Virus record (IMG/VR): IMGVR_UViG_3300028025_000511
Coordinates: 1 to 33,689 of that record
DNA length: 33,689 nucleotides
Source of the DNA: a virus
Reading direction: 5' to 3' (one strand)
The notes under the pieces were generated by a model. The model was given only the letters and a program-made list of their open reading frames with translations, was not told the DNA's origin and did not search any database. A program made the translations under genes and the position numbers. Shown here piece by piece: positions 3,354-33,364 of this stretch (its first letter is position 1; each line of letters begins with the position of its first letter).

Positions 3354-3505
3354 ACCAGTATCAAAAAGACTTTGATTTAGCACTCCGAATCATTGTCTAT
3401 GGTTTGGTGGCTCTCTGGTTTCTTGGGTTTTTGAAGTTTCTCCCTGACGATTTGGCAGACAGAGTTGTTAACCTTTTGCTTGGCAAGATTGGACTTGGCA
3501 AATGA
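3350..3505 (+). CDS. 51-residue single-span membrane protein
   Basis: Starts at GTG inside the upstream stop (GTGA overlap). Reads MNQYQKDFDLALRIIVYGLV then ALWFLGFLKFLPDDLADRVV, giving one membrane helix at about 12-31 and an amphipathic tail ending GKIGLGK. The stop overlaps the next ATG. Translational coupling on both sides supports expression despite the GTG start. A holin-like role is possible but unproven. Confidence 0.65.
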   Translation: MNQYQKDFDLALRIIVYGLVALWFLGFLKFLPDDLADRVVNLLLGKIGLGK

Positions 3506-3678
3506 AAATCACCAGTTATCAACAAAATGCAAAGATGCTTTGGGAGGCTCACAGGGTGATACACAAGCAGAACATGGAACGACTTGCCGAACTAAACCGA
3601 CAAGCTGAGTTGCAAAAGAAAGCCTACGAGATAAAGACCAATTGGGTCAAACCTAATTCTGTGGACACAATGGCATGA
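3502..3678 (+). CDS. 58-residue soluble helical protein, unknown
   Basis: A short polar, helix-forming protein (MKITSYQQNAKMLWEAHRVI, then a Gln/Lys/Glu-rich coiled-coil-like middle). It has no membrane segment, which sets it apart from its neighbours. It is coupled to both flanking genes by 4-base overlaps. No domain recognised. Confidence 0.6.
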   Translation: MKITSYQQNAKMLWEAHRVIHKQNMERLAELNRQAELQKKAYEIKTNWVKPNSVDTMA

Positions 3679-3884
3679 AATATCTACTGATTTTTATAGC
3701 ATTTATGCTATCGGGCTGTGAAGACAGGTATCGATACAAGTGTCAGAATCCTGACTTCTTCCATGCTGAAGAATGTCAAAAGCCTAAGTGCTTATTTACT
3801 CAGCAATGCCCAGAATACTTAGTAGCACCAATTCTTGAGAAAAAGGTTAACGATGTCCAACCCGAAGCCAAACCTAACAACTGA
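3675..3884 (+). CDS. Small Cys-rich lipoprotein
   Basis: 69 residues. The signal peptide MKYLLIFIAFMLSGC ends in a lipobox (LSGC, Cys15), so the product should be a lipidated membrane protein. The mature part starts EDRYRYKCQNPDFF and carries several further Cys residues, followed by a tail ending PEAKPNN. The DRYRY-C-Q-P pattern is one I have seen in other environmental phages near lysis or tail genes. It might be a second outer-membrane spanin-like component, or an exclusion lipoprotein made late. The overlap with the previous gene is ATGA, and its end overlaps the next gene. Confidence 0.8.
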   Translation: MKYLLIFIAFMLSGCEDRYRYKCQNPDFFHAEECQKPKCLFTQQCPEYLVAPILEKKVNDVQPEAKPNN

Positions 3885-4377
3885 AGAATTTGAAGTCCGA
3901 GTGTGGGGCTTTGTGGTCATTGTGGTGACCTGCATCTTGTGCTTTATTGTGATTGCCTTGCTCTACTCTGTAACCTTTGTTACACAGCCTATCAAGAGCA
4001 TGGCCCCGATTGACCAAGCCTACACAAAGATGCTGAACGACATTGTTCTGCTTATCGTAGGTGGTATCGGTGGTGTGATGACTAAGAGAGCAGCAGGTGC
4101 AGCAGCAAAGGCTTTTGGCGCACCACAGCCTCCAATGCAACCGATGTGTCAACCAATGGGTTTTAACAGCTCTATGGGCGGTTTTAATCAATCCTATGCA
4201 CCTACGCAGTCTGCGTATGGTTTGCCTAGTCAACCATTCGGTGCTATGCCAGTTTGGAAGAATCCAGAACTAGATGAATCATGGACTCCTCCTCCTCCTC
4301 CGACTACGCCTCCAGAGCATCTTGAGGATGACAATGAGCGTGAGGAAATTGCACAAGCAAGAAAAGAGGCTGAATGA
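3853..4377 (+). CDS. Putative two-span holin-like membrane protein
   Basis: 174 residues from the ATG at 3853; a TTG at 3835 would add six residues but is less likely. Two membrane segments are visible: FVVIVVTCILCFIVIALLY (about 20-40) and DIVLLIVGGIGGVM (about 63-77). A Gly/Ala segment follows, then a long Met/Pro/Gln-rich tail with PPPPPTTPPEH and an acidic-basic end. Two helices in front of Rz/Rz1 and endolysin genes fit a class II-like holin, although the long Pro-rich C-terminus is unusual for one. The gene overlaps the lipoprotein gene by 32 bases. Function inferred from topology and neighbours. Confidence 0.65.
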   Translation: MSNPKPNLTTEEFEVRVWGFVVIVVTCILCFIVIALLYSVTFVTQPIKSMAPIDQAYTKMLNDIVLLIVGGIGGVMTKRAAGAAAKAFGAPQPPMQPMCQPMGFNSSMGGFNQSYAPTQSAYGLPSQPFGAMPVWKNPELDESWTPPPPPTTPPEHLEDDNEREEIAQARKEAE

Positions 4378-16375: not shown

Positions 16376-16612
16376 ATGGCTGGAAGACCGATAAATAAAT
16401 TACATCAGGAAGATGTACGCAAGAAAATACAGGTAAGTCAATTACTAAATGTCTTGCAAAATCATGCACTTGGTGTAGATGAAGACTTAAGTCCTACTCG
16501 GATGAAGGCAATTGAAATACTATTGCGTAAGTCTATGCCTGATATGGCATCTGTAACAGTAAGCGGAGACTCTGACCAACCACTTCAGCACATAGTTACA
16601 TGGGCGAAGTAA
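16376..16612 (+). CDS. Terminase small subunit, putative
   Basis: 78 residues. MAGRPINKLHQEDVRKKIQV, an N-terminal helical region, then SPTRMKAIEILLRKSMPDMA, typical of small phage DNA-recognition subunits that act with the large terminase. A strong GAGGAG site precedes the ATG. The gene overlaps the large subunit by 13 bases, the usual arrangement. Confidence 0.72.
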   Translation: MAGRPINKLHQEDVRKKIQVSQLLNVLQNHALGVDEDLSPTRMKAIEILLRKSMPDMASVTVSGDSDQPLQHIVTWAK

Positions 16613-17862
16613 TCGAAATCCCTTACAGACCAAGGGAACACCAACTAAAGGTTCACGAATTACTGGAAGGCAAACGCTTTGCAGTAGTAGTGGCACATCG
16701 AAGGTTTGGTAAAACTGTAGCTGCTCTCAATCACCTAATCCGTGATGCGGTGTTAAACCAAAGAGAGACACCAAGATATGCCTATATTGCGCCTACTTAT
16801 GGTCAAGCAAAGAGGGTGGCATGGGATTACTTGGTTAAATACACTACACCGCTAGGCGGTACTAACAACATCTCAGAATTACGAGTTGACTTCTGGGGTA
16901 GGCGAATCCAGCTTTATGGCTCTGACAACCCTGATTCCTTACGAGGACAGTTTTTTGACGGAGTGATTATTGACGAGGTTGGCGACCAAAACCCAAAGAT
17001 TTGGACTGATATTGTTCGACCTGCGCTGACAGACCGCAAAGGGTGGTGCTTATTCATTGGTACACCCAAAGGTCACAACCACTTCAAAGAACTGCGAGAC
17101 AGGGCAGAAACTGAAGAAGGATGGGGTTTGCTAGAGTTCAAAGCCTCTGAAACAGGGGTGGTGGACGATACAGAACTGAAGGCTGCTCGTAATGAGATGG
17201 GTGAGGATAAGTACCGCCAAGAGTTTGAATGTAGCTTTGATGCTGCTGTAGAAGGTTCTTACTATGGACAAATCCTCAATGAACTGGAAGACAAGCACCA
17301 TATGCAAGACATTCCAAGAGAGGAACTGAGCCGTACATTTACTGCTTGGGATTTGGGTATGGGTGATTCAACATCTATTTGGGTGGCTCAGTTAGTAGGT
17401 ACTGAAGTGCGTCTGATTGACTACTACGAGAATCATGGTGTTGGACTAGACCACTATGTGAAGTGGATTAGGGACAATGACTATGCCAAAGCAGAGCATA
17501 TTCTGCCCCATGACGTTAGGGTCAGAGAGTTAGGTTCTGGGAAAAGCCGACTAGAGATGCTTGAGGAAGCAGGACTAGAGATAAAGATTGCCCCGAGAAT
17601 GGGTCTAGATGATGGTATTCAAGCGGTAAGGCGACTATTGCCAAGGTGCTGGTTTAATGTCCCTAAAGTCCAGATAGGGCTGAACTGCCTGAGAAACTAC
17701 CGCAGAGATTACGATGAAAAGCGTAAGATTTTCTATGAGCGTCCATTGCATGACTGGTCATCGCATGGCTCGGACTCATTCCGCTACTTAGCCCTTGGAC
17801 TTGATGAAGGTCACAGTACATGGTCTAAACCGATTAACCAAGCACCGAAATGGATTGTCTGA
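16600..17862 (+). CDS. terL: Terminase large subunit
   Basis: 420 residues, full length for a compact TerL. The ATPase domain has Walker A-like VVAHRRFGKT (about 30-39), Walker B with DE at 125-126 (GVIIDEVGDQ) and the coupling motif FIGTPKG (about 152-158). The C-terminal RNase H-like nuclease has D251 in TAWDLGMGDSTSIW and D305 in LPHDVRV. The enzyme pumps DNA into the prohead and cuts concatemers. Its stop overlaps the next ATG as TGATG. Confidence 0.96.
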   Translation: MGEVIEIPYRPREHQLKVHELLEGKRFAVVVAHRRFGKTVAALNHLIRDAVLNQRETPRYAYIAPTYGQAKRVAWDYLVKYTTPLGGTNNISELRVDFWGRRIQLYGSDNPDSLRGQFFDGVIIDEVGDQNPKIWTDIVRPALTDRKGWCLFIGTPKGHNHFKELRDRAETEEGWGLLEFKASETGVVDDTELKAARNEMGEDKYRQEFECSFDAAVEGSYYGQILNELEDKHHMQDIPREELSRTFTAWDLGMGDSTSIWVAQLVGTEVRLIDYYENHGVGLDHYVKWIRDNDYAKAEHILPHDVRVRELGSGKSRLEMLEEAGLEIKIAPRMGLDDGIQAVRRLLPRCWFNVPKVQIGLNCLRNYRRDYDEKRKIFYERPLHDWSSHGSDSFRYLALGLDEGHSTWSKPINQAPKWIV

Positions 17863-18035
17863 TGTATTTAGAGCGTCAAGGGGTCAATTTAGCCCCAAAA
17901 GTAAAAGAACTTGAAAACCGCATTGAAGTATTGGAAAATGTGGTAAAAGCTTTACAATTGGAAAAACCCCGAATGGGTCGCCCTCCAAAGGACAAAAATG
18001 CAACAGAACGAACTGAAGTCAATCCTCCAAGCTGA
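17862..18035 (+). CDS. 57-residue coiled-coil protein with GRPPK motif
   Basis: MYLERQGVNLAPKVKELENR starts a coiled coil (IEVLENVVKALQLEK), followed by RMGRPPKDKN, an AT-hook-like motif, and a polar tail. Starts in the terminase stop (TGATG) and overlaps the portal gene by 38 bases. Might bind DNA or portal at the packaging vertex; no family recognised. The start at 17850 is a less likely alternative. Confidence 0.6.
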   Translation: MYLERQGVNLAPKVKELENRIEVLENVVKALQLEKPRMGRPPKDKNATERTEVNPPS

Positions 18036-20130
18036 GATTGATGATGCTATTGGCTACATTGAAACTGAAACTGTTGACCAGCGCAAACAGGCTCTGGAAG
18101 CGTATCTACGACAGCCATATGGCAATGAAGTTGAGGGTAAGTCTCAAATCGTTACTGGAGAAGTAGCAGAAGCGATTGATGGTGCGTTACCTAGCTTAGT
18201 TCGTATTTTCACAGGCTCAGATAATATTGTTATCTTTGAGCCACAAGGCCCACAAGACGAAGCGTCTGCAAAGCAAGCTACTGATTATTGCAATTGGGTG
18301 TTCTTGCGTGACAACGAAGGCGTAGCTATTTTGCATGACTGGTTCAAAGATGCTTTGATGCAGAAGAACGGCATCCTAAAAGCATATTGGGAAAATAAAG
18401 AAGACATTACAAAAGAGCGTTACTTTGACTTGTCTGATGACGAGTTAGCAATGCTGATGAGTGATGAAACAATGGAAATTGTCGAGCAAGATACGACAGA
18501 GTTTCCAATCTATGACCCAATGGGACAGCCAGTCATTGACCCAACTGGTATGCCAGTCATGGGTTCTACACACAATGTCGTAGTCCAAAAGCGCAAGAAA
18601 TCAGGCAAAGTAACGATTGAGAATGTTCCTCCAGAGGAGTTCTTGATTAGCAAGAAGGCTCGTACTATTGCTGATTCTCCATTCGTAGCCCATCGTCAGA
18701 TGTTGACTCGTAGTGACTTGATTGCTATGGGGTTCAACAAGAAGCAAGTTGAAGGCTTGCAGATGGATGATGCACTAGCCTACACACCAGAGCGAGTTGC
18801 TCGTTACTCTGCTGGTGAGCAACCTTACCAAGTGCAGACTGATGACCCATCAATGCAAGAGATTGAGGTCTTTGAGTGCTATGTCAAAACTGATATGAAT
18901 GGCAAAGGCATTGCTGCTCTGACTCAGGTTTTCTACGCTTCAAACGAGATTCTACAAGATGCAGATGGTAAGGAAATGGTTGAAGAAGTGGACTATGTTC
19001 CTTTCCATTCAATCTGCCCAATCCCAATTCCACACAAGTTCTTTGGCAACTCACTTGCTGACCGAACAACTGACTTGCAACTGATTAAAACCACTATCAC
19101 TCGTCAAATGTTGGATAACTTATATCTGACAAACAACGCACGAGTGGTTGCTGTTGAAGGTCAGGTAAACCTTGACGATTTGCTTACATCTACCGCAGGT
19201 GGTGTTATTCGTGCCAAGTCACCTAATGCTGTTCAACAACTGGTTGTGCAGAATGTGGCATCTCAGGCTTTCCCAATGCTTCAGTATTTGGATACAGTCC
19301 AGTCTAAGCGTACTGGTGTGTCTGATGCTTCACAAGGTCTTGACCCTGCTATCTTGCAGAATGTCACAGCAGCAGCAGTTGCCTCGATGCAACAAGCTGG
19401 CGCAGGTAAGATTGAACTGATGGCTCGAATCTTTGCTGAGACTGGTGTTAAGTCTTTGTTCCAAGGCATCTTGCATCTGCTTTGCAAATACCAAGACAAA
19501 GCACGAATGGTGCGTATGCGTGGTGAGTTCGTAGAGTTTGACCCTCGTACATGGGCTAACCAATACGATGTGTCTATCAATGTTGGTTTGGGTGCTGGTA
19601 ACCGACAAGAGCAGATGGCTATGTTGTCAATGGTTCTGGCTAAACAAGAGCAGTTGATTGCTCAGTATGGCCCTGCCAATCCATATGTCTCCCCTGCTCA
19701 ATATCGTGCTACTTTGGGACGCATGGTTGAGATTGCTGGCTTTAAGGATTCTGGTGAGTTCTATAAGGCGATTACACCAGAGCAAGACCAGATGCTATCG
19801 AATCCTCCTCCACAACAACAACAAATGCCTCCAGAAGTGCAAGCAATCATGGCTCGGACACAGGCTGAGATTCAAGCTAACCAAGCTAAAGCACAAGCTG
19901 ACATTCAGTTGAAGCAACAGCAACAACAGATTGACATGGAGATGGCACAACAAAAGGCTGCTCTTGAGATGCAATTGATGCGTGAGAAAGAAGCTGCTAA
20001 GTTGATGCTTGAGCGTGAGAAACAACAGGCTTATTTTGCTATGAAGCAACAAGAGTTTGAAGCAGAAGCCCAATTGAAAGCAATGAAAATTGGTGCTGGC
20101 ATTACATCTAACGTAGAGATTAAAGGTTAA
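17998..20130 (+). CDS. Portal protein, P22-like
   Basis: 710 residues. The N-terminal region (LEAYLRQPYGNEVEGKSQIV, EVAEAIDGALPSLVRIFTGS, KQATDYCNWVFLRDN) is typical of P22/SU10-like portals. It forms the dodecameric ring through which DNA enters and leaves. The central portion includes KFFGNSLADRTTDLQ and SDASQGLDPAIL. The C-terminal 110 residues are a Gln/Lys/Glu coiled coil, comparable to the P22 portal barrel. AAAGGA precedes the ATG. It lies directly after terminase, as expected. Confidence 0.93.
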   Translation: MQQNELKSILQAEIDDAIGYIETETVDQRKQALEAYLRQPYGNEVEGKSQIVTGEVAEAIDGALPSLVRIFTGSDNIVIFEPQGPQDEASAKQATDYCNWVFLRDNEGVAILHDWFKDALMQKNGILKAYWENKEDITKERYFDLSDDELAMLMSDETMEIVEQDTTEFPIYDPMGQPVIDPTGMPVMGSTHNVVVQKRKKSGKVTIENVPPEEFLISKKARTIADSPFVAHRQMLTRSDLIAMGFNKKQVEGLQMDDALAYTPERVARYSAGEQPYQVQTDDPSMQEIEVFECYVKTDMNGKGIAALTQVFYASNEILQDADGKEMVEEVDYVPFHSICPIPIPHKFFGNSLADRTTDLQLIKTTITRQMLDNLYLTNNARVVAVEGQVNLDDLLTSTAGGVIRAKSPNAVQQLVVQNVASQAFPMLQYLDTVQSKRTGVSDASQGLDPAILQNVTAAAVASMQQAGAGKIELMARIFAETGVKSLFQGILHLLCKYQDKARMVRMRGEFVEFDPRTWANQYDVSINVGLGAGNRQEQMAMLSMVLAKQEQLIAQYGPANPYVSPAQYRATLGRMVEIAGFKDSGEFYKAITPEQDQMLSNPPPQQQQMPPEVQAIMARTQAEIQANQAKAQADIQLKQQQQQIDMEMAQQKAALEMQLMREKEAAKLMLEREKQQAYFAMKQQEFEAEAQLKAMKIGAGITSNVEIKG

Positions 20131-20132
20131 TC

Positions 20133-22520
20133 ATGGCTATTTCTGATGCTTTGGCTTGGCGTTTAAATAATGGCGGTACTGCCGATGACCTTTATAAAGA
20201 CATTCGCACTTTTTTAGCATCAAGTCCTGATGCTGCAACTACCCAATCATTGATGGCTCAATATGGAGTATCTGGTGAGGATGTGGCTGCTGCAACAGGT
20301 GGTAAGTCTGGTGGTACGCTAACTGGCAACATCATGGCAGGTGCTAGTTGGAATAGCCTTAATGAAACATTGCCAGAACAGTTAACTGCTGCTACTGGTC
20401 AAGCTACAACTAATGTAGCTGTTGGTGGTGCTACTACTGCTGACACTCTTAATCAACTGAATACATTTTTGGCAGGTGGTGGTCAGTTTGACCCTAATGC
20501 AACTGTATTCTTACAAACTGGTGGTGTTGATTTCATTACTGGCGTAGATAAAGATACTGTTAAAAATAACATTAACCAGATTGTTAAGACTTTGGGTGAC
20601 CAAGGTGTTAATGTTGTTTTGACTGGTTCACCTTATGCTGCTTCTTTGCAAGATGTAGTTAACAACAACTTTAATCCAGAAGTTGACCAGATTTTTACTG
20701 ACATTGCTAAAGAAAACAAGAATGTTGCTTTGGTAGGTGTTCAAGGTGAGATTCTGCAAAACAAGAATTTGTTAGTGGACGCTTTGCATACCAATGCTGA
20801 AGGGACAGCAATCTATAACCAAGCTGTTATTGATTCTTTATCTCAGTTTAAGAATGAAGTGCCATCTAGCACTCCACAAGCAATTGAGCAAGTTCAAACA
20901 ACAAACTCAATTGCAGCAACACCTGTTGCAAACACTATTACTGACTATCGTGGCAAACAATACGATAAAGACACATTAGTAAAACTTGCACAGCAAATTG
21001 CACCAACCTTAGATAAAAACAATCTAGCAGGTGGTGTTTACAGTACTAATAACGAAAACATTGGTTTTGCATATGAGGAAGCAACCAATGCTCTTGGTTA
21101 CAAGCCAACAGCAGCAGAACAAGTTGTTTTGGATATGGCTCGTCATTTGATTGATACTGGCGTTACAGACATAAACCAAGTAGATGCTGGAAGTGAAAAT
21201 CAAAGATTTGGTTCTACATATACTGGCGAAGGTGGAACAGTCTATGAAATTAAACGTGACCCAACCACAGGCGAAATAGTTACTTCTACATGGGGTAAGA
21301 CTACTAGCGACAAAGGAAACATTGTTGCTGCACTTTCTATTGGGGCAGGTTTGCTAGGTGTTCCAACTCAAATTGGTACTGCAATTCTTGGTGCTGGTGC
21401 TAGTCCTGTTGCTGCTAGTGCATTGGGTGGTGCTTTGTTGGGAGGAACAACAGCAGCCTTAACTGATAGTAATATTCTTAAAGGTGCATTGTTAGGTGGT
21501 GCAGGTGGTGCTGTAAGTGGTTATCTCCAAAATCCTACAATTGATGCTTCTAACATGACTTCAGAGCAGTTTAATGATGCGCTAGAAGGTCAATTGGTAA
21601 AAGATATGCAATTGTCTGGTTTAACAAAAGACCAGATTTCTGCATTTTTGGATGACATGGGTATTGGTAAAGGAGTTGTTACACCAACAATTACAACACC
21701 AACTGCTATATCTACGCCAGTTTCAGATACTGTTTCTATTACTGCGCCTACTACGCCATCATTGAACAATGTCTTAAATACAATTGCTGCTACTACACCT
21801 GCTGTAACTATTACAGCACCAAGAGAACAACAAAAAATTGACCAGCCAGCATTGAATTTGGGTAAACCAACTATTACGCCAGAACAAGTAATTACTTCTA
21901 ATAGACCTACTACAGCACAAGATGTTATTAGTTCTATTATTTCTTCAAGTCCAACAATTCCAACAACTACTACACCAGAAATTAAAGTAACGTCAACAAA
22001 ACCAACAAACATTGGCGATACTTTAGCTGCTATTACAACAATTCCATCTACGTTAACAACAACTCCTGTAACAACTAATCAAACAACAAATACTGCAACA
22101 AAAGAAACTGACCCTCTTAAGGTTGCTCAGTTAGCTTTGTCTGCTGCTGGTTTGCTTGGTGCAGGTGCTGCTTTGTCAAACACAAATACACCAACAGGCT
22201 TTGAAGTTGTGCCAATCCCAGAGAGTTGGGGTAATCCTCCAAAACCAAGTGTTGCGCCATTTACACAGTTGCCTCCAATTGACTTTGGCAATCGTAATCT
22301 GTTGATTGGCACTCAATGGGAAAAGTTCTTAAATCCTAACTATGGAAAAGTGCCAGAGCCTGTGCAATACTCACAGCCATCAAACCTGAGTTACAACGAT
22401 TTGATGGGAATTTTGGGTAGCAAGCAAGGTATGCCTCCTGCAAGTAGCCTAAGTATCAACGACATTATTTCTGGAATACAAAATCAATATGGACAAACAG
22501 CTTCTCGCACAATGGGCTAA
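20133..22520 (+). CDS. Large virion protein with SGNH-hydrolase-like N-terminal domain
   Basis: 795 residues. Residues about 65-235 follow the SGNH/GDSL order: MAGASWNS (Ser72 in place of GDS), NVAVGGATT, FLQTGGVDF (a G-x-N-D-like block), and DALHTNAEG with D216 and H219 as the Asp/His pair. The middle holds a Gly/Ala-rich hydrophobic zone (about 395-460: IGAGLLGVPTQIGTAILGAG), followed by a Thr/Pro-rich linker and a Pro-rich C-terminus. Between portal and scaffold it is probably a virion protein, perhaps ejected. Hydrolase activity on cell-surface esters is inference. Confidence 0.68.
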   Translation: MAISDALAWRLNNGGTADDLYKDIRTFLASSPDAATTQSLMAQYGVSGEDVAAATGGKSGGTLTGNIMAGASWNSLNETLPEQLTAATGQATTNVAVGGATTADTLNQLNTFLAGGGQFDPNATVFLQTGGVDFITGVDKDTVKNNINQIVKTLGDQGVNVVLTGSPYAASLQDVVNNNFNPEVDQIFTDIAKENKNVALVGVQGEILQNKNLLVDALHTNAEGTAIYNQAVIDSLSQFKNEVPSSTPQAIEQVQTTNSIAATPVANTITDYRGKQYDKDTLVKLAQQIAPTLDKNNLAGGVYSTNNENIGFAYEEATNALGYKPTAAEQVVLDMARHLIDTGVTDINQVDAGSENQRFGSTYTGEGGTVYEIKRDPTTGEIVTSTWGKTTSDKGNIVAALSIGAGLLGVPTQIGTAILGAGASPVAASALGGALLGGTTAALTDSNILKGALLGGAGGAVSGYLQNPTIDASNMTSEQFNDALEGQLVKDMQLSGLTKDQISAFLDDMGIGKGVVTPTITTPTAISTPVSDTVSITAPTTPSLNNVLNTIAATTPAVTITAPREQQKIDQPALNLGKPTITPEQVITSNRPTTAQDVISSIISSSPTIPTTTTPEIKVTSTKPTNIGDTLAAITTIPSTLTTTPVTTNQTTNTATKETDPLKVAQLALSAAGLLGAGAALSNTNTPTGFEVVPIPESWGNPPKPSVAPFTQLPPIDFGNRNLLIGTQWEKFLNPNYGKVPEPVQYSQPSNLSYNDLMGILGSKQGMPPASSLSINDIISGIQNQYGQTASRTMG

Positions 22521-22728
22521 AAACTTACTAAATGATGACTTTTTCAAAGATGTCATAGATAATTTGAAAAAAGAGCAGATTAGTGTAATAATTAACACAA
22601 GTGCAGAAGAATCTGATAGGCGTGAAGACGCTTACAGGCACATTAAGACATTAGAACTAATTACAGGACACCTAGAAGGCTTGGCCTCGGAAACTGTGAT
22701 TAGAGAGAAGAAGTGGAAGATTCTGTAG
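22489..22728 (+). CDS. 79-residue conserved protein before scaffold
   Basis: MDKQLLAQWAKNLLNDDFFK, NLKKEQISVIINTSAEESDR, then RREDAYRHIKTLELITGHLE and ASETVIREKKWKIL. The family is one I recognise between portal and scaffold genes in several phages; the W-x-IL end is typical. It may assist head assembly. Overlaps the previous gene by 32 bases. Confidence 0.72.
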   Translation: MDKQLLAQWAKNLLNDDFFKDVIDNLKKEQISVIINTSAEESDRREDAYRHIKTLELITGHLEGLASETVIREKKWKIL

Positions 22729-22781: not shown

Positions 22782-23717
22782 ATGGAAAACACCAACCCAC
22801 AAGGGAGTGAAAGCCTAGATGTAAACCAAGCCGCTTCAGCGTTAATGGGACTGATGGGTGATTCAGAGGAAGCCGAACAAGGCCAAACCGAAGAACAGCC
22901 AGAGGAACTACAAGCGTCTGATGAAGCTGATGCCGAGTATTCTGAGGAAGAAGAAGTCGAGCAACCAAAGCCTAGATATAAAGTCAAAGCTGCTGGTGAG
23001 GAGATTGAAGTTGACGAAGAAGAACTCATTAAAGGTTATCAGCAAGGTGTAGATTACACGAAAAAGTCTCAGGCTTTAGCTGAACAACGCAAAGCTGTAG
23101 AAGCAGAGCGTATTCACTTAGAGCAGGTGAAACAAGAACGACAGGCATATGCCCAGAAGTTGCAAGCATTGGATAGCTTCCTATCGCAGCAAAATAAGGG
23201 TGTGGACTTAGATGTTCTAAAGGAAACAGACCCTATTGGTTATGCGGTAGCGGTAGCTGAACAGAATCAGCGTGAGAAGCAGTTAGCAGTAGTAAGGCAA
23301 GAACAGCAACGCATTGCACAACAGCAACAAGCCGAGCAACAAGCCTCTTTGCAAAACCATCTCCGTCAAGAATCTGAGAAGCTAGTTGGTCTGATTCCTG
23401 AGTTGGCTACGCCACAGGGTGATGCGATTCGGAAACAAATCCGTGATTATGCGAAGTCTGTTGGGTGGACTGACCAAGAACTCAGTTCCGTTTATGACTC
23501 TCGGGCTGTGGTGAGTTTGTATAAAGCAATGAAGTATGAGCAACTTCAAAAGAGTAAGCCTGAAGTAACCAAGAAACTTCAAGCTGCTCCTAAGATGATG
23601 CGTTCTGGGACTTCTGCGCCTCCTACAAAGTCATCACAAGATAAACAGGTTATGCAAAGGTTGCGTGAAACTGGAAAAGTCCAAGACGCTGCTCGAGCAT
23701 TTGAACGATTCTTTTAA
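22782..23717 (+). CDS. Scaffolding protein
   Basis: 311 residues. Very acidic N-terminus (about 1-65), short segment KPRYKVKAAGEEIEVDEEEL, then long Gln/Glu/Lys coiled coils (about 95-210), and a basic C-terminus ending DAARAFERFF. Composition and the position immediately before the major capsid gene are those of a scaffolding protein, which guides prohead assembly through its C-terminal end and is then released. Confidence 0.88.
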   Translation: MENTNPQGSESLDVNQAASALMGLMGDSEEAEQGQTEEQPEELQASDEADAEYSEEEEVEQPKPRYKVKAAGEEIEVDEEELIKGYQQGVDYTKKSQALAEQRKAVEAERIHLEQVKQERQAYAQKLQALDSFLSQQNKGVDLDVLKETDPIGYAVAVAEQNQREKQLAVVRQEQQRIAQQQQAEQQASLQNHLRQESEKLVGLIPELATPQGDAIRKQIRDYAKSVGWTDQELSSVYDSRAVVSLYKAMKYEQLQKSKPEVTKKLQAAPKMMRSGTSAPPTKSSQDKQVMQRLRETGKVQDAARAFERFF

Positions 23718-23732
23718 ATTTGGAGTATTAAC

Positions 23733-24683
23733 ATGGCTACATATCAAACATATACCGCTATCGGTATGCGCGAAGACCTCTCTGATGTAATCTATAACAT
23801 CAGCCCCACAGACACACCTTTCATGTCTTCCATTGGCAAGACAAAGGCTACTGCTGTTCTGCACGAGTGGCAGACTGACAGCTTGGCTGCTGCTACTTTG
23901 TCAAACTTTGCAGTTGAGGGTGCAACAGCTTCTGACGCTACTATGTCTCCAACAACTCGTGTTGGTAACCGCACTCAAATCGCTCAGAAAACTGTCAAGA
24001 TTTCTGGCACTTTGCAGTCTGTTGACAAAGCTGGTCGTAAGTCTGAAAAGGCTTATCAGTTGGCTAAAGCCTCTGCTGAAATCAAGCGTGACATGGAAAC
24101 ATCATTGTTGAGCAACCAGATTGCTGCCAATGGTGACTCCACTACTGCTCGTAAATTGGGTGGTCTGCAAGCATGGCTGAACAGCAACTACTCTGGTGGT
24201 ACTGATGGTGTTGCTGGTTCTTTGGGTACAACTGCTCGTGTAAACGGCACAAACCGCACTTTCACAGAAGCCTTGTTGCAATCTGTTGTTAAGAGCGTTT
24301 ACGCTTCTGGTGGCAACCCCAAAGTGTTGATGGTCAACCCTGCGCACAAGCAAGTGGTTTCAGCTTTTGCTGGTATTGCTGCTCAGCGTTTCATGGCCCC
24401 ATCTAACAGCCCAACCACAATCGTGGCTGCTGCCGATGTGTACATGAGCGATTTCGGTACAATTTCTGTTGTTCCTAACCGCTTCATGACTTCTACCAAC
24501 TCATGCGATGAGACAGCATTTGTGCTTGACCCCGACATGGCTGCTGTTGCTTACTTGCGTCCTTTCCAGACCAACGAGTTGGCTGTGACTGGTGACAACG
24601 AAAGCACACAGTTGTTGGCTGAGTACACCTTGGAAGTTAAAAACCAAGCTGCACACGGCATTATTGCTGACTTGACACCTTAA
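23733..24683 (+). CDS. Major capsid protein, SU10-type (DUF5309)
   Basis: 316 residues. The N-terminus MATYQTYTAIGMREDLSDVI then YNISPTDTPFMSSIGKTKAT, the middle ISGTLQSVDKAGRKSEKAYQ and the C-terminal FVLDPDMAAVAYLRPFQT match the SU10-like major head protein family (HK97 fold). It follows scaffold, and a strong terminator follows it, as usual for the most expressed gene. The codons are dominated by a few preferred choices. Confidence 0.92.
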   Translation: MATYQTYTAIGMREDLSDVIYNISPTDTPFMSSIGKTKATAVLHEWQTDSLAAATLSNFAVEGATASDATMSPTTRVGNRTQIAQKTVKISGTLQSVDKAGRKSEKAYQLAKASAEIKRDMETSLLSNQIAANGDSTTARKLGGLQAWLNSNYSGGTDGVAGSLGTTARVNGTNRTFTEALLQSVVKSVYASGGNPKVLMVNPAHKQVVSAFAGIAAQRFMAPSNSPTTIVAAADVYMSDFGTISVVPNRFMTSTNSCDETAFVLDPDMAAVAYLRPFQTNELAVTGDNESTQLLAEYTLEVKNQAAHGIIADLTP

Positions 24684-24763: not shown

Positions 24764-25069
24764 ATGGAAAAGATTAGAGAAACTGCTGTTCATGCCGATG
24801 GTGAAGGTGGCATCATCATTCAAACTCGTCAAGATGTTTCTGCCATTGTTGAGCAGAACAAAAAGGAATATAACTCCTTTGATGAACGAGCAAGATGGTC
24901 TGACAACTTGTTTGGCAACAAGGTTGCATCTATCCCATTGACAGTTATTGATGACCTTAACAAACAAGGCATCATGCGTGGTTATGCTGTTGTTGATGAT
25001 AAGCGTTTTGCCGCTTTCCTAAATGACCCATTGAATCGTGCATGGCGCACTAGAACAGGAGTTGTATGA
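24764..25069 (+). CDS. Conserved protein after capsid, putative head completion
   Basis: 101 residues. MEKIRETAVHADGEGGIIIQ, then FDERARWSDNLFGNKVASIP, LTVIDDLNKQGIMRGYAVVD and a C-terminal RAWRTRTGVV. A family I recognise after SU10-like capsid genes; function not established, probably in head maturation or closure. Overlaps the next start by ATGA. Confidence 0.75.
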   Translation: MEKIRETAVHADGEGGIIIQTRQDVSAIVEQNKKEYNSFDERARWSDNLFGNKVASIPLTVIDDLNKQGIMRGYAVVDDKRFAAFLNDPLNRAWRTRTGVV

Positions 25070-25686
25070 GTTTTACTACCTATGCTGAACTACAGACAAC
25101 TATCGCAGGATACTTGGCTCGTTCAGACCTAACAACTCAAATCCCAGACTTTATTCGTTTGGCAGAGATTCGCTTGCGTAGAGATTTGCGTATTCGCCAG
25201 ATGTTGAATTCAACTACGCTGACCTGCACATCAGGAACAGCGACAGTTAGTATTCCTAGTGACTTCTTGGAAGTAAAAGATTTTGTAGTTAATGTCAATC
25301 CTGTGATGCCATTGAACTACCAATCACCATCTTTGTTTTCTCGTAACTCACGAACAACAGATGTAGGTAAGCCATTGGATTACACAGTCCTAGCTTCTAC
25401 ATTTAAGTTAGCACCAGTACCTGATACTGCCTACACATTGACATTGATTTACTCTGCTGCGCCTCCTTATTTGAGTGATTCAAATACGAGCAACACATTC
25501 ATGACTGTGTGTCCTGATTTGCTTCTGTATGCGTCTTTGCTTGAAGCAGAGCCATATTTGATGAATGATGCTCGAATCAACACATGGGGAACTATGTTTG
25601 ACAGAGCTATGAATTCGTTGACTCGTTCTGATGAGAAGGGTCAATTCTCTGGCGTTCCTTTGGCAATGCAAACAACATATATCTGA
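25066..25686 (+). CDS. Head-tail adaptor protein (SU10-like)
   Basis: 206 residues. MSFTTYAELQTTIAGYLARS, IPDFIRLAEIRLRRDLRIRQ (helical N-terminus), a beta domain (SGTATVSIPSDFLEVKDFVV), and a helical C-terminus (CPDLLLYASLLEAEPYL). This is the adaptor type that forms a ring below the portal in SU10/P22-like phages. ATGA coupling to the previous gene; the nozzle-like gene follows directly. Confidence 0.85.
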   Translation: MSFTTYAELQTTIAGYLARSDLTTQIPDFIRLAEIRLRRDLRIRQMLNSTTLTCTSGTATVSIPSDFLEVKDFVVNVNPVMPLNYQSPSLFSRNSRTTDVGKPLDYTVLASTFKLAPVPDTAYTLTLIYSAAPPYLSDSNTSNTFMTVCPDLLLYASLLEAEPYLMNDARINTWGTMFDRAMNSLTRSDEKGQFSGVPLAMQTTYI

Positions 25687-27979: not shown

Positions 27980-28876
27980 ATGGCGACTACTACCACATCA
28001 CAAATTGACCAAACAATCCAACCATATTTAGGTTATGGATTGCAACAAGCACAGCAGTTGTATCAGGGCGGTGGGCCTCAGTACTATGGTGGTCAGACTT
28101 ATGTAAGTCCATCGACTACCACTCAGACAGGTTTACAGGCTCTTGAGGCTCGTGCTTCTTTGGGTAACCCATTACTCCAGTCTGCTCAGAATCAACTCCA
28201 GAACACAGTTTCTGGTGGTTTCTTGGGTGGCAATCCTTTCTTCCAAGGTGCGTTCCAACCTGCTGCACAAGCTGCTGAGACTCAGTTCAAGCAGACTTTA
28301 GGTGACATTTCATCTAAGGCTAGTTTGGCAGGGCGTTATGGCTCTGGTGCTATGGGTCAGTTGCAAGACCGAGCCACAGGCGCATTTGGTCAACAGTTGG
28401 CTAATACTGCTGGACAGTTGGCTTACCAGAACTATGCAGATGAGCGTAATCGTCAGCAACAAGCTACATTGGCTGCCCCTGCGATGTCACAAGCTGACTA
28501 CCAAGACATTCAGAATATGTTGCAAGCTGGTCAGATTCGTGAAGGTTACACAGGTCAACAACAAGCAGCAGATATTGCTAAATTCAACTTCTTGCAAAAC
28601 CAACCACAACAGAACTTGCAGAACTATCTGTCATTGGTCTATGGCAACCCACTAGGACGAGTAGCTTCATCTACCACTAGCGGTGCAGCAGATACATCTA
28701 CATTGCAGAATGTTCTTGGTTTAGCTGCTGTTGGTGGTGGCTTGTACAAGAATCTTGGTTCACCTAATTTGGGTAGCTGGTTAAGTAACTGGGGTTCAAC
28801 TCCTAGTAACTTTGTAGATGTTGGTAATTTAGGTGCTGCATCTAACGCTACTTTAGCTCAGTATGGGATTATCTAA
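27980..28876 (+). CDS. Internal virion / DNA ejection protein 1
   Basis: 298 residues. MATTTTSQIDQTIQPYLGYG, LQQAQQLYQGGGPQYYGGQT, then Gln/Ala-rich helices (GAMGQLQDRATGAFGQQLAN, YQNYADERNRQQQA) and a Gly-rich end. This Q/Y/G-rich pattern is known from short-tailed phages, in genes placed before other internal proteins. It is probably stored in the head or at the portal and ejected to form the channel across the cell envelope. AGGAG precedes the ATG. Confidence 0.72.
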   Translation: MATTTTSQIDQTIQPYLGYGLQQAQQLYQGGGPQYYGGQTYVSPSTTTQTGLQALEARASLGNPLLQSAQNQLQNTVSGGFLGGNPFFQGAFQPAAQAAETQFKQTLGDISSKASLAGRYGSGAMGQLQDRATGAFGQQLANTAGQLAYQNYADERNRQQQATLAAPAMSQADYQDIQNMLQAGQIREGYTGQQQAADIAKFNFLQNQPQQNLQNYLSLVYGNPLGRVASSTTSGAADTSTLQNVLGLAAVGGGLYKNLGSPNLGSWLSNWGSTPSNFVDVGNLGAASNATLAQYGII

Positions 28877-31723: not shown

Positions 31724-33364
31724 ATGGCAAAGACCAAGATTTCAGAATACAGCAGTACCGCAGGAAACAATACTGACATTAACAGTATTAACTTAGCGGA
31801 GGGTATGGCCCCATCTTTAGTCAACAATGCCATTCGTCAATTGATGGCTCAGTTGAAGAACTTTCAAGATGGTTCTGCTGGTGACAATGTAACTGTTGGT
31901 GGTAACTTGTATGTGACTGGCACATCTACCATGACAGGTGCAATTACTGCCTCTGGTGGTATCAACGGCAATCTAACATCGTCTTCTGCAACGATTACTG
32001 GCGGTACTATCAATGGTGCTGTTATTGGTGGTTCATCTGCACAAGCAATCACAGGAACGAATGTAACGGCTACTGTGGGGTTTACTGGCCCTCTGACAGG
32101 CGCAGTGACAGGCAATGTAACTGGTAATGTCACAGGTGCTGTAACAGGTAATGTGACTGGTAACTTGACAGGTAATGTTACAGGCAATGTAACTGCTGCT
32201 TCTGGTACTTCAACATTCAACAATGTGACCATCTCTGGCTCATTGGACATGGATGCAGGTACATCAGCAACCATTACTGGCTTGGCTAACCCTGTAAACG
32301 ATTCTGACGCTGCTAACAAGGGTTATGTTGATGCACTAGCCCAAGGTATCGATGCTAAAGCATCTTGTGTTGTAGCTACAACGGCTAACATCACTTTGTC
32401 TGGTACACAAACAATTGATGGCATTGCAGTATCTGTTGGTGACCGAGTTCTGGTTAAAGACCAATCTACTGCTTCACAGAATGGTATCTATCTGTGCGCA
32501 TCTAGTACATGGACTAGAACAACAGATGCAAACACATGGGATGAGTTGGTTGCTGCATTTACCTTTATCGAGAAGGGTACGACACAAGCAAACAATGGTT
32601 ACATCTCAACGATTACTGCTGGCGGTACTTTAGGCACTACAGCAGTTACCTTTGCTCAATTCTCTGGTGCGGGTCAGATTACTGCTGGCGCAGGTTTGAC
32701 AAAGACTGGTAACACCATTGATGTTGGCACAGCGTCTTCTAGCCGTATTGTTGTTAACTCAGACAATATCGACTTGGCGACTTCTGGCGTAACAGCAGGA
32801 ACATACAAGTCTGTCACAACAGATGTTTATGGCCGAATTACAGCAGGTACTAACCCAACTACTCTGAGTGGTTTTGGCATTACAGATACTTACACATCTG
32901 CCCAGATTGATACCTTGTTTGGTTCAACAGAATCTGCTGCAACAAGTGCGGCTGCTGCTGCGACTTCAGCATCTAACGCTGCTACGAGTGCCACAAATGC
33001 CTCTACAAGCGCAGGAAATGCCTCTACAAGCGCAACGGCTGCTGCTGCTAGTGCTACGGCTGCTGCCGCCTCATACGACTCGTTTGATGACCGCTATTTA
33101 GGTGCTAAGTCAACTGCACCATCTGTTGACAATGATGGTAACGCTTTGTTGACTGGTGCTTTGTACTGGAATACATCCACTAATAACTTGTTCGTTTGGA
33201 CAGGTTCAACATGGTCTAGTGCAGCGTTTACAGCAGGTTCATTTGTTACTTTAACTGGTACTGAGACCCTGACAAACAAAACAATTTCTGCTGCAAACAA
33301 CACTCTTGTTGGTGTGGCTTCAACTGGTAAAGCCATAGCAATGGCAATCGTTTTTGGCGGTTAA
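31724..33364 (+). CDS. Long tail fibre protein
   Basis: 546 residues. The N-terminus MAKTKISEYSSTAGNNTDIN then LAEGMAPSLVNNAIRQLMAQ is the common virion-anchoring end of podovirus fibres. Then come tandem (V/L)-T-G-(N/A) repeats (about 124-156), a beta domain with GYVDALAQGIDAKASCVVAT and VGDRVLVKDQST, an Ala/Ser/Thr-rich coil (about 403-445), and an end with ALYWNTSTNNLFVWTGSTW. It is a trimeric, mostly beta fibre. Reverse-strand frames across it are shadows of the repeats. Confidence 0.88.
   Translation: MAKTKISEYSSTAGNNTDINSINLAEGMAPSLVNNAIRQLMAQLKNFQDGSAGDNVTVGGNLYVTGTSTMTGAITASGGINGNLTSSSATITGGTINGAVIGGSSAQAITGTNVTATVGFTGPLTGAVTGNVTGNVTGAVTGNVTGNLTGNVTGNVTAASGTSTFNNVTISGSLDMDAGTSATITGLANPVNDSDAANKGYVDALAQGIDAKASCVVATTANITLSGTQTIDGIAVSVGDRVLVKDQSTASQNGIYLCASSTWTRTTDANTWDELVAAFTFIEKGTTQANNGYISTITAGGTLGTTAVTFAQFSGAGQITAGAGLTKTGNTIDVGTASSSRIVVNSDNIDLATSGVTAGTYKSVTTDVYGRITAGTNPTTLSGFGITDTYTSAQIDTLFGSTESAATSAAAAATSASNAATSATNASTSAGNASTSATAAAASATAAAASYDSFDDRYLGAKSTAPSVDNDGNALLTGALYWNTSTNNLFVWTGSTWSSAAFTAGSFVTLTGTETLTNKTISAANNTLVGVASTGKAIAMAIVFGG
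32093..32191 (+). repeat. 12-bp-unit tandem repeats in tail fibre gene
   Basis: About eight copies of a 12-bp unit coding (V/L)TG(N/A), differing mostly at third codon positions. Slippage or recombination between units would change the fibre length in frame. Confidence 0.85.

Follow-up and report, generated by a model that had tools for sequence, protein, structure and literature searches.

A predicted, exchangeable SGNH-fold cassette in a modular protein encoded between the portal and scaffold genes of an SU10-type morphogenesis module

Gene neighbourhood and layout of the protein

The window, i.e. the whole stretch of viral DNA analysed here (33,689 nucleotides; IMG/VR record IMGVR_UViG_3300028025_000511), derives from a short-tailed freshwater phage and contains a morphogenesis module of the SU10 type (Kuravirus-like), in which the portal, major capsid and adaptor families are all present in an order matching that of SU10. 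Hereby, the large terminase gene (16600-17862) and the SU10-type portal gene (17998-20130; PF23899, E 1.4e-216) lie upstream of an open reading frame (ORF) of 795 aa on the plus strand (20133-22520), which starts 2 bases past the portal stop codon. Downstream follow the genes for the head scaffolding protein (22782-23717; phrog_3927), the SU10-type major capsid protein (23733-24683; PF17236, E 7e-103) and the SU10-type adaptor (25066-25686; PF24175). With PF23899 before the gene and phrog_3927 and PF17236 after it, the position between portal and scaffold that an earlier note on this DNA had given for a large protein is borne out. We define the gene for this modular protein by the ORF itself and by the equal place that it takes in related loci: in loci of SU10 context, portal, large gene and scaffold follow one another wherever the contig extends far enough, and the same order is found in 48 more distant loci. 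PHROG searches with the protein and its relatives returned no consistent family.

SU10, Methylophilales phage Venkman, phage ctXG6705 and pelagiphage HTVC106P possess only a small gene at this place (78 aa in SU10), and the large gene thus represents an extra gene of the window's lineage. An ORF of 79 aa (22489-22728), which overlaps the final 32 bases of the large gene, is likely the window's counterpart of SU10 gp7 (78 aa), judged by its position and a common REDxYxxxK stretch. The nearest isolate by portal for which a host is named has a Methylophilales bacterium as host (57% identity). In two related loci, L046 (4815-9609) and L076 (1-7792), the structural genes are inverted relative to the large gene and, in L046, partly duplicated; this order may be an assembly artefact, either chimeric or inverted. 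Elsewhere in the window, positions 184-1137 encode a protein with a glycine-rich domain (PF21722, E 4e-17). The adaptor of the window and the related loci occurs in two types, which are about 63-68% or 84-100% identical to that of the window although the portals are all above 90% identical, and the adaptor gene is thus a second mosaic gene.

All parts of the large protein are encoded on the plus strand. It begins with a small helical domain (residues 1-60; 20133-20312), whose helices are modelled with pLDDT values of mostly 78-94, and continues with the SGNH-fold domain described below and a middle domain (residues about 270-395; 20940-21317), which is one of several exchangeable types. A Gly/Ala-rich hydrophobic zone (residues about 396-470; 21318-21542) and a Thr/Pro-rich linker (residues about 475-655; 21555-22097), the latter mostly modelled at low confidence, had been described in the earlier note and are confirmed by hydropathy and composition. 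A hydrophobic helix (residues about 660-683; 22110-22181) precedes the conserved C-terminal block (residues 690-795; 22200-22517), the proposed docking part, which is present in every SU10-context member and shows many invariant columns in 55 sequences. A fold search with the low-confidence model of residues 265-795 (pLDDT 53) gave no meaningful match. Distant family members of down to 302-318 aa have the hydrophobic zone at their very start, with the linker and the C-terminal block behind it, so that the parts ahead of this zone look like additions. In the 1396 aa homologue of locus L015, the linker contains 2.7 copies of a 282-base tandem repeat (3484-4263), which is likely a route by which linker length changes.

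SGNH-fold domain and active-site positions

Residues 62-245 (20316-20867) were assigned to the SGNH fold, GAS type, on the basis of Pfam, the solved structure of CrmE10, a structural model and a fold search. The Pfam family Lipase_GDSL (PF00657; curated cut-off 23.6 bits) matches residues 71-227 with 30 bits (E 7.4e-7), and this match recurs in 28 of 28 relatives with E values up to 0.001. The closest solved structure found by sequence search is that of the SGNH carboxylesterase CrmE10 (7c23), with an E value of 2.2e-5. Sequence homology thus indicates that the resemblance to the SGNH fold is not due to chance. The blocks proposed in the earlier note are found in order and as placed (G70-A71-S72, N94...G98-G99, G130-G131-V132-D133 and D216-A-L-H219). 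Structure prediction supports the proposal in part: the model of residues 1-261, calculated from 28 sequences (pLDDT 64.5, pTM 0.68), shows the strand/helix order of the SGNH fold, and a fold search with it yields mostly SGNH esterases as top matches, with weak but consistent scores (best E 0.014, probability 0.94); the stretch containing Asp216 and His219 (block V) is modelled at low confidence, and the predicted triad geometry is thus tentative.

The conservation of the active-site positions was analysed in 107-108 sequences from IMG/VR loci, a number that includes contigs fetched twice, whereas codon usage and dN/dS were evaluated for 65 distinct proteins and 68 distinct DNA sequences. The presumed nucleophile Ser72 (20346-20348) is invariant in 107 sequences, is encoded by AGT or AGC codons, and terminates the first strand of the model. 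Likewise, Asp216 and His219 of the block V motif Asp216-x-x-His219 (20778-20789) are invariant in 108 sequences, so that all three residues whose presence the earlier note had reported are strictly conserved. The codons of all three vary synonymously, and the median pairwise dN/dS of 0.12 indicates purifying selection. In block II (Gly98-Gly99; 20424-20429), Gly99 is invariant and Gly98 is replaced by Ala in 23 of 108 sequences. Automatic alignments shift block I by 1-3 columns even when the domain is re-aligned alone, and Ser72 is therefore assigned from its G-x-S pattern, its conservation and its location in the model. A first alignment that mixed GAS- and GDS-type SGNH domains misplaced block I and was left out of structure prediction.

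The domain deviates from canonical SGNH hydrolases at two positions. The Ser block reads GAS instead of GDS (Ala71), as the earlier note had remarked, and this motif is found invariantly in every member. The second deviation goes beyond that note: the block III position expected to hold the oxyanion-hole Asn is occupied by Val132 (20526-20528), GGVD being aligned with GAND of CrmE10 and in the same way with GDS-type phage domains. Val132 is present in 108 of 108 sequences, so the block III Asn of canonical SGNH domains is absent throughout. This Asn is usual in SGNH enzymes and its replacement abolishes activity where it is used, yet the SASA, PatB1 and XOAT1 families are active without it (PMC9487903). 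Judged by its residues, the window domain is thus an SGNH-fold domain that is non-canonical as an SGNH hydrolase, and probably, though not certainly, catalytic.

Exchange of the cassette within and between phage lineages

To describe the modular build of the family, we sorted its members by N-terminal type (GAS-type SGNH, GDS-type SGNH or none), middle type (A, B or C) and type of C-terminus, and found these joined in many ways. For example, among full-length proteins, GAS-type SGNH with middle type B is joined to the C-terminal type CT100 in 19 cases and to CT2 in 17; members lacking an SGNH domain combine middle type A with CT100 (22 cases), and GDS-type SGNH with middle type A is found with CT2 in four cases and with CT100 in one (the L052/L082 contig). 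In the first scan, the SGNH domain was absent from about half of the close relatives and is thus not essential. On a tree built quickly from an outgroup and 67 portals, which gives approximate numbers of changes, the presence of the GAS-type domain requires at least 18 changes, at least 7 of which are forced by well-supported branches.

The closest relative by portal (L043; 98% identity) lacks the SGNH domain. Its DNA is about 95-96% identical to that of the window through residue 4, and continuous similarity returns at residue ~659 or 696, depending on alignment settings; the breakpoints thus fall at the start codon (residues 2-4) and at about residues 656-715. Loci L005 and L038 retain the SGNH domain (64 to about 255) behind another N-terminus, which replaces the first 63 residues. 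Compared across these loci, the SGNH domain is an N-terminal cassette that can be missing or exchanged, with many gains and losses among close relatives, a property absent from the interpretation given in the earlier note.

Other N-termini occur at the same place. In L052 (2174-4837), the homologue carries a different, canonical GDS-type SGNH domain preceded by a weak DUF4214 match. GDS-type domains have canonical motifs (GDS, GMNE and DxxH), and their relatives in cultured phages include the tail spike of Pectobacterium phage PP99 and the tail fibre of phage HHU8. GDS- and GAS-type domains are only about 20% identical in alignment, so that this fold was acquired twice, independently, at one and the same gene position. 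The N-terminal part encoded in L068 (3000-5000) matches Dockerin_1 above the cut-off; the N-termini of L034, L047 and L080 match an AsnC-type helix-turn-helix, above the cut-off in L080 only.

The same GAS-type cassette is also joined to two further, unrelated C-termini in phages of other lineages. The gene with the second C-terminus (CT2) follows genes for an SU10-type adaptor, a virion structural protein and a tail fibre, and the gene with the third (CT3) follows the major capsid gene, so that all three contexts are blocks of structural genes. At the DNA level, cassettes joined to CT100 are up to 92.7% identical to those joined to CT2 and up to 86.4% identical to those joined to CT3, which points to transfer between phage lineages. 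Relatives of the GAS-type domain were not found in cultured phages at E values up to 0.1, and none was confirmed in a collection of 84,980 prokaryote species searched with two peptide patterns, a search that distant relatives may escape. An unannotated protein of an uncultured phage (BFVD A0A6J5LR05) is 80% identical to the N-terminal 261 residues.

It is possible, though on balance rather unlikely, that these contexts reflect a shared particle cargo system, in which a lineage-specific C-terminal docking block is combined with a pool of N-termini that recombines across lineages, and the window's SGNH type, working with an oxyanion hole devoid of the Asn, is delivered from a portal-linked site rather than by a tail fibre. 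Hereby, the pool would comprise two SGNH types, dockerin-like or DUF4214-like domains, or no such domain at all.

Proposed function and comparison with known systems

We infer that the large protein is present in the virion, and our preferred interpretation, held tentatively and at slightly less than an even chance, is that of a modular, probably virion-borne protein whose exchangeable N-terminal SGNH cargo hydrolyses an ester, likely an O-acetyl group, of the host envelope. The conserved C-terminal block would anchor the protein inside the particle or on its surface, presumably close to the portal, and the Gly-rich hydrophobic zone together with the Thr/Pro linker could form a flexible, possibly membrane-active stalk. 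At adsorption or entry, Ser72, His219 and Asp216 would strip an ester group from a glycan of the host envelope, O-acetyl being the likeliest. The lipopolysaccharide or capsule suggested in the earlier note would be a hypothetical substrate. With Val in place of the block III Asn, the backbone amides of Ser72 and Gly98/99 would have to stabilise the oxyanion, perhaps aided by a further side chain, for instance that of Asn74 or Asn94. Sequence comparison shows that the cargo is swapped among phages by recombination in the interval from the conserved start of the gene to the conserved C-terminal block, so that phages with near-identical heads differ in their SGNH tool. This pattern suggests a fast-changing tool for the host surface.

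The altered active site would also agree with a domain that has kept the SGNH fold without normal catalysis and, as a receptor-recognition domain of the virion, recognises a (possibly acetylated) host glycan. No member has either the Asp of GDS or the Asn of the oxyanion hole, and the frequency with which close relatives exchange the domain suits host recognition. However, a pure binder needs no intact triad, whereas here the three triad residues are invariant and the domain is under purifying selection, and families lacking the Asn such as SASA, PatB1 and XOAT1 are active (PMC9487903). We therefore regard a binding module as unlikely. We likewise see little chance that the protein is packed inside the head and leaves it with the DNA, in which case the periplasmic target of the SGNH domain would be membrane lipids or the O-acetyl groups of peptidoglycan, and the hydrophobic zone would enter a membrane. 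The Gly/Ala-rich zone, the hydrophobic helix and the make-up of the short members (hydrophobic zone, linker and C-terminal block) would fit such a role, and SU10 ejects five proteins, one of them with a transglycosylase (PMC9509320). The SU10 ejection proteins gp20-24, assigned by proteomics of full versus emptied particles, are, however, encoded elsewhere in the SU10 genome (PMC9509320); a search for homology to known ejection proteins found none, and PHROG matches to internal virion proteins are weak and confined to 2 of 56 members.

A probable DNA ejection protein of the window is encoded at 27980-28876 (phrog_4287, E 1e-8) and is conserved in related loci. An apparent similarity of CT2 to this candidate (uncorrected BLAST E about 6e-6) was rejected as a composition effect, since the composition-adjusted E value is 4.4 and the profile-profile probability 0.9%; a link of CT2 via the neighbouring gene pair fails too. 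With gp20-24 encoded elsewhere and the CT2 link lost, ejection stays among the explanations without being favoured. Finally, the protein could act outside the virion, by aiding assembly or as an enzyme inside the cell, and its gene would lie between portal and scaffold by coincidence. No gene of such size is present there in SU10, Venkman or HTVC106P, so that the particle core can do without it. Against this, three different C-termini carry the cassette, each within a block of structural genes, and long Thr/Pro linkers and hydrophobic zones, as present here, are seldom borne by free enzymes and would be unusual in one. We thus consider a role outside the particle quite improbable, and retain a virion-borne protein with an SGNH esterase cargo as the preferred interpretation.

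Compared to canonical SGNH/GDSL esterases (CrmE10 7c23, TesA, PF00657, PF13472), the window domain shares the block order, the presumed block I Ser, the block II Gly and DxxH; it differs by GAS, by Val in block III and by its N-terminal and long C-terminal fusions. It resembles SASA, PatB1/DHHW and XOAT1/PC-esterase in that the usual Asn cannot be used, the position being hydrophobic in XOAT1 (PMC9487903), and on sequence reading it lacks both the Gln/HQGE signature of SASA and the block II Arg of PatB1. The invariant Ser/Asp/His alongside Val in place of the oxyanion Asn poses a question of enzyme mechanism.

Among the related loci, L052 and, more distantly, L101 and L102 also encode an SGNH domain at or near the N-terminus in the portal/scaffold interval; L052 has the same C-terminal block, but its SGNH domain is of the canonical GDS type and that of the window of the GAS type. 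The unannotated protein UOF80803.1 of phage ctnlZ23 (MW202710.1) shares the C-terminal block and gene position and is devoid of an SGNH domain. The window and L043 represent a natural near-isogenic pair.

SGNH receptor-binding proteins are tail fibres or spikes that are attached to the virion by their N-terminus; among them is the O-antigen deacetylase gp63.1 of coliphage G7C. The window ORF matches no tail-fibre family in PHROGs or Pfam, and the predicted tail fibre of the window is a separate gene (31724-33364). Virion SGNH esterases, mainly in tail fibres, are increasingly recognised as host-range determinants, and SGNH tail fibres of phages can have esterase activity (PMC13123978). Like G7C gp63.1 and the SGNH fibres of Klebsiella prophages (PMC13123978), the window protein has an exchanged SGNH domain with a proposed action on host-glycan esters. 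Unlike such fibres and spikes, it is encoded next to the portal, carries its SGNH domain at the N-terminus and the conserved block at the C-terminus, and has Val at the position of the block III Asn. The window protein is thus set apart by its portal-adjacent gene, the N-terminal cargo on a conserved C-terminal block, an oxyanion hole of altered make-up and an exchange that crosses phage lineages; should the protein be part of the particle, it would provide phages with a second route to change their enzymatic tools.
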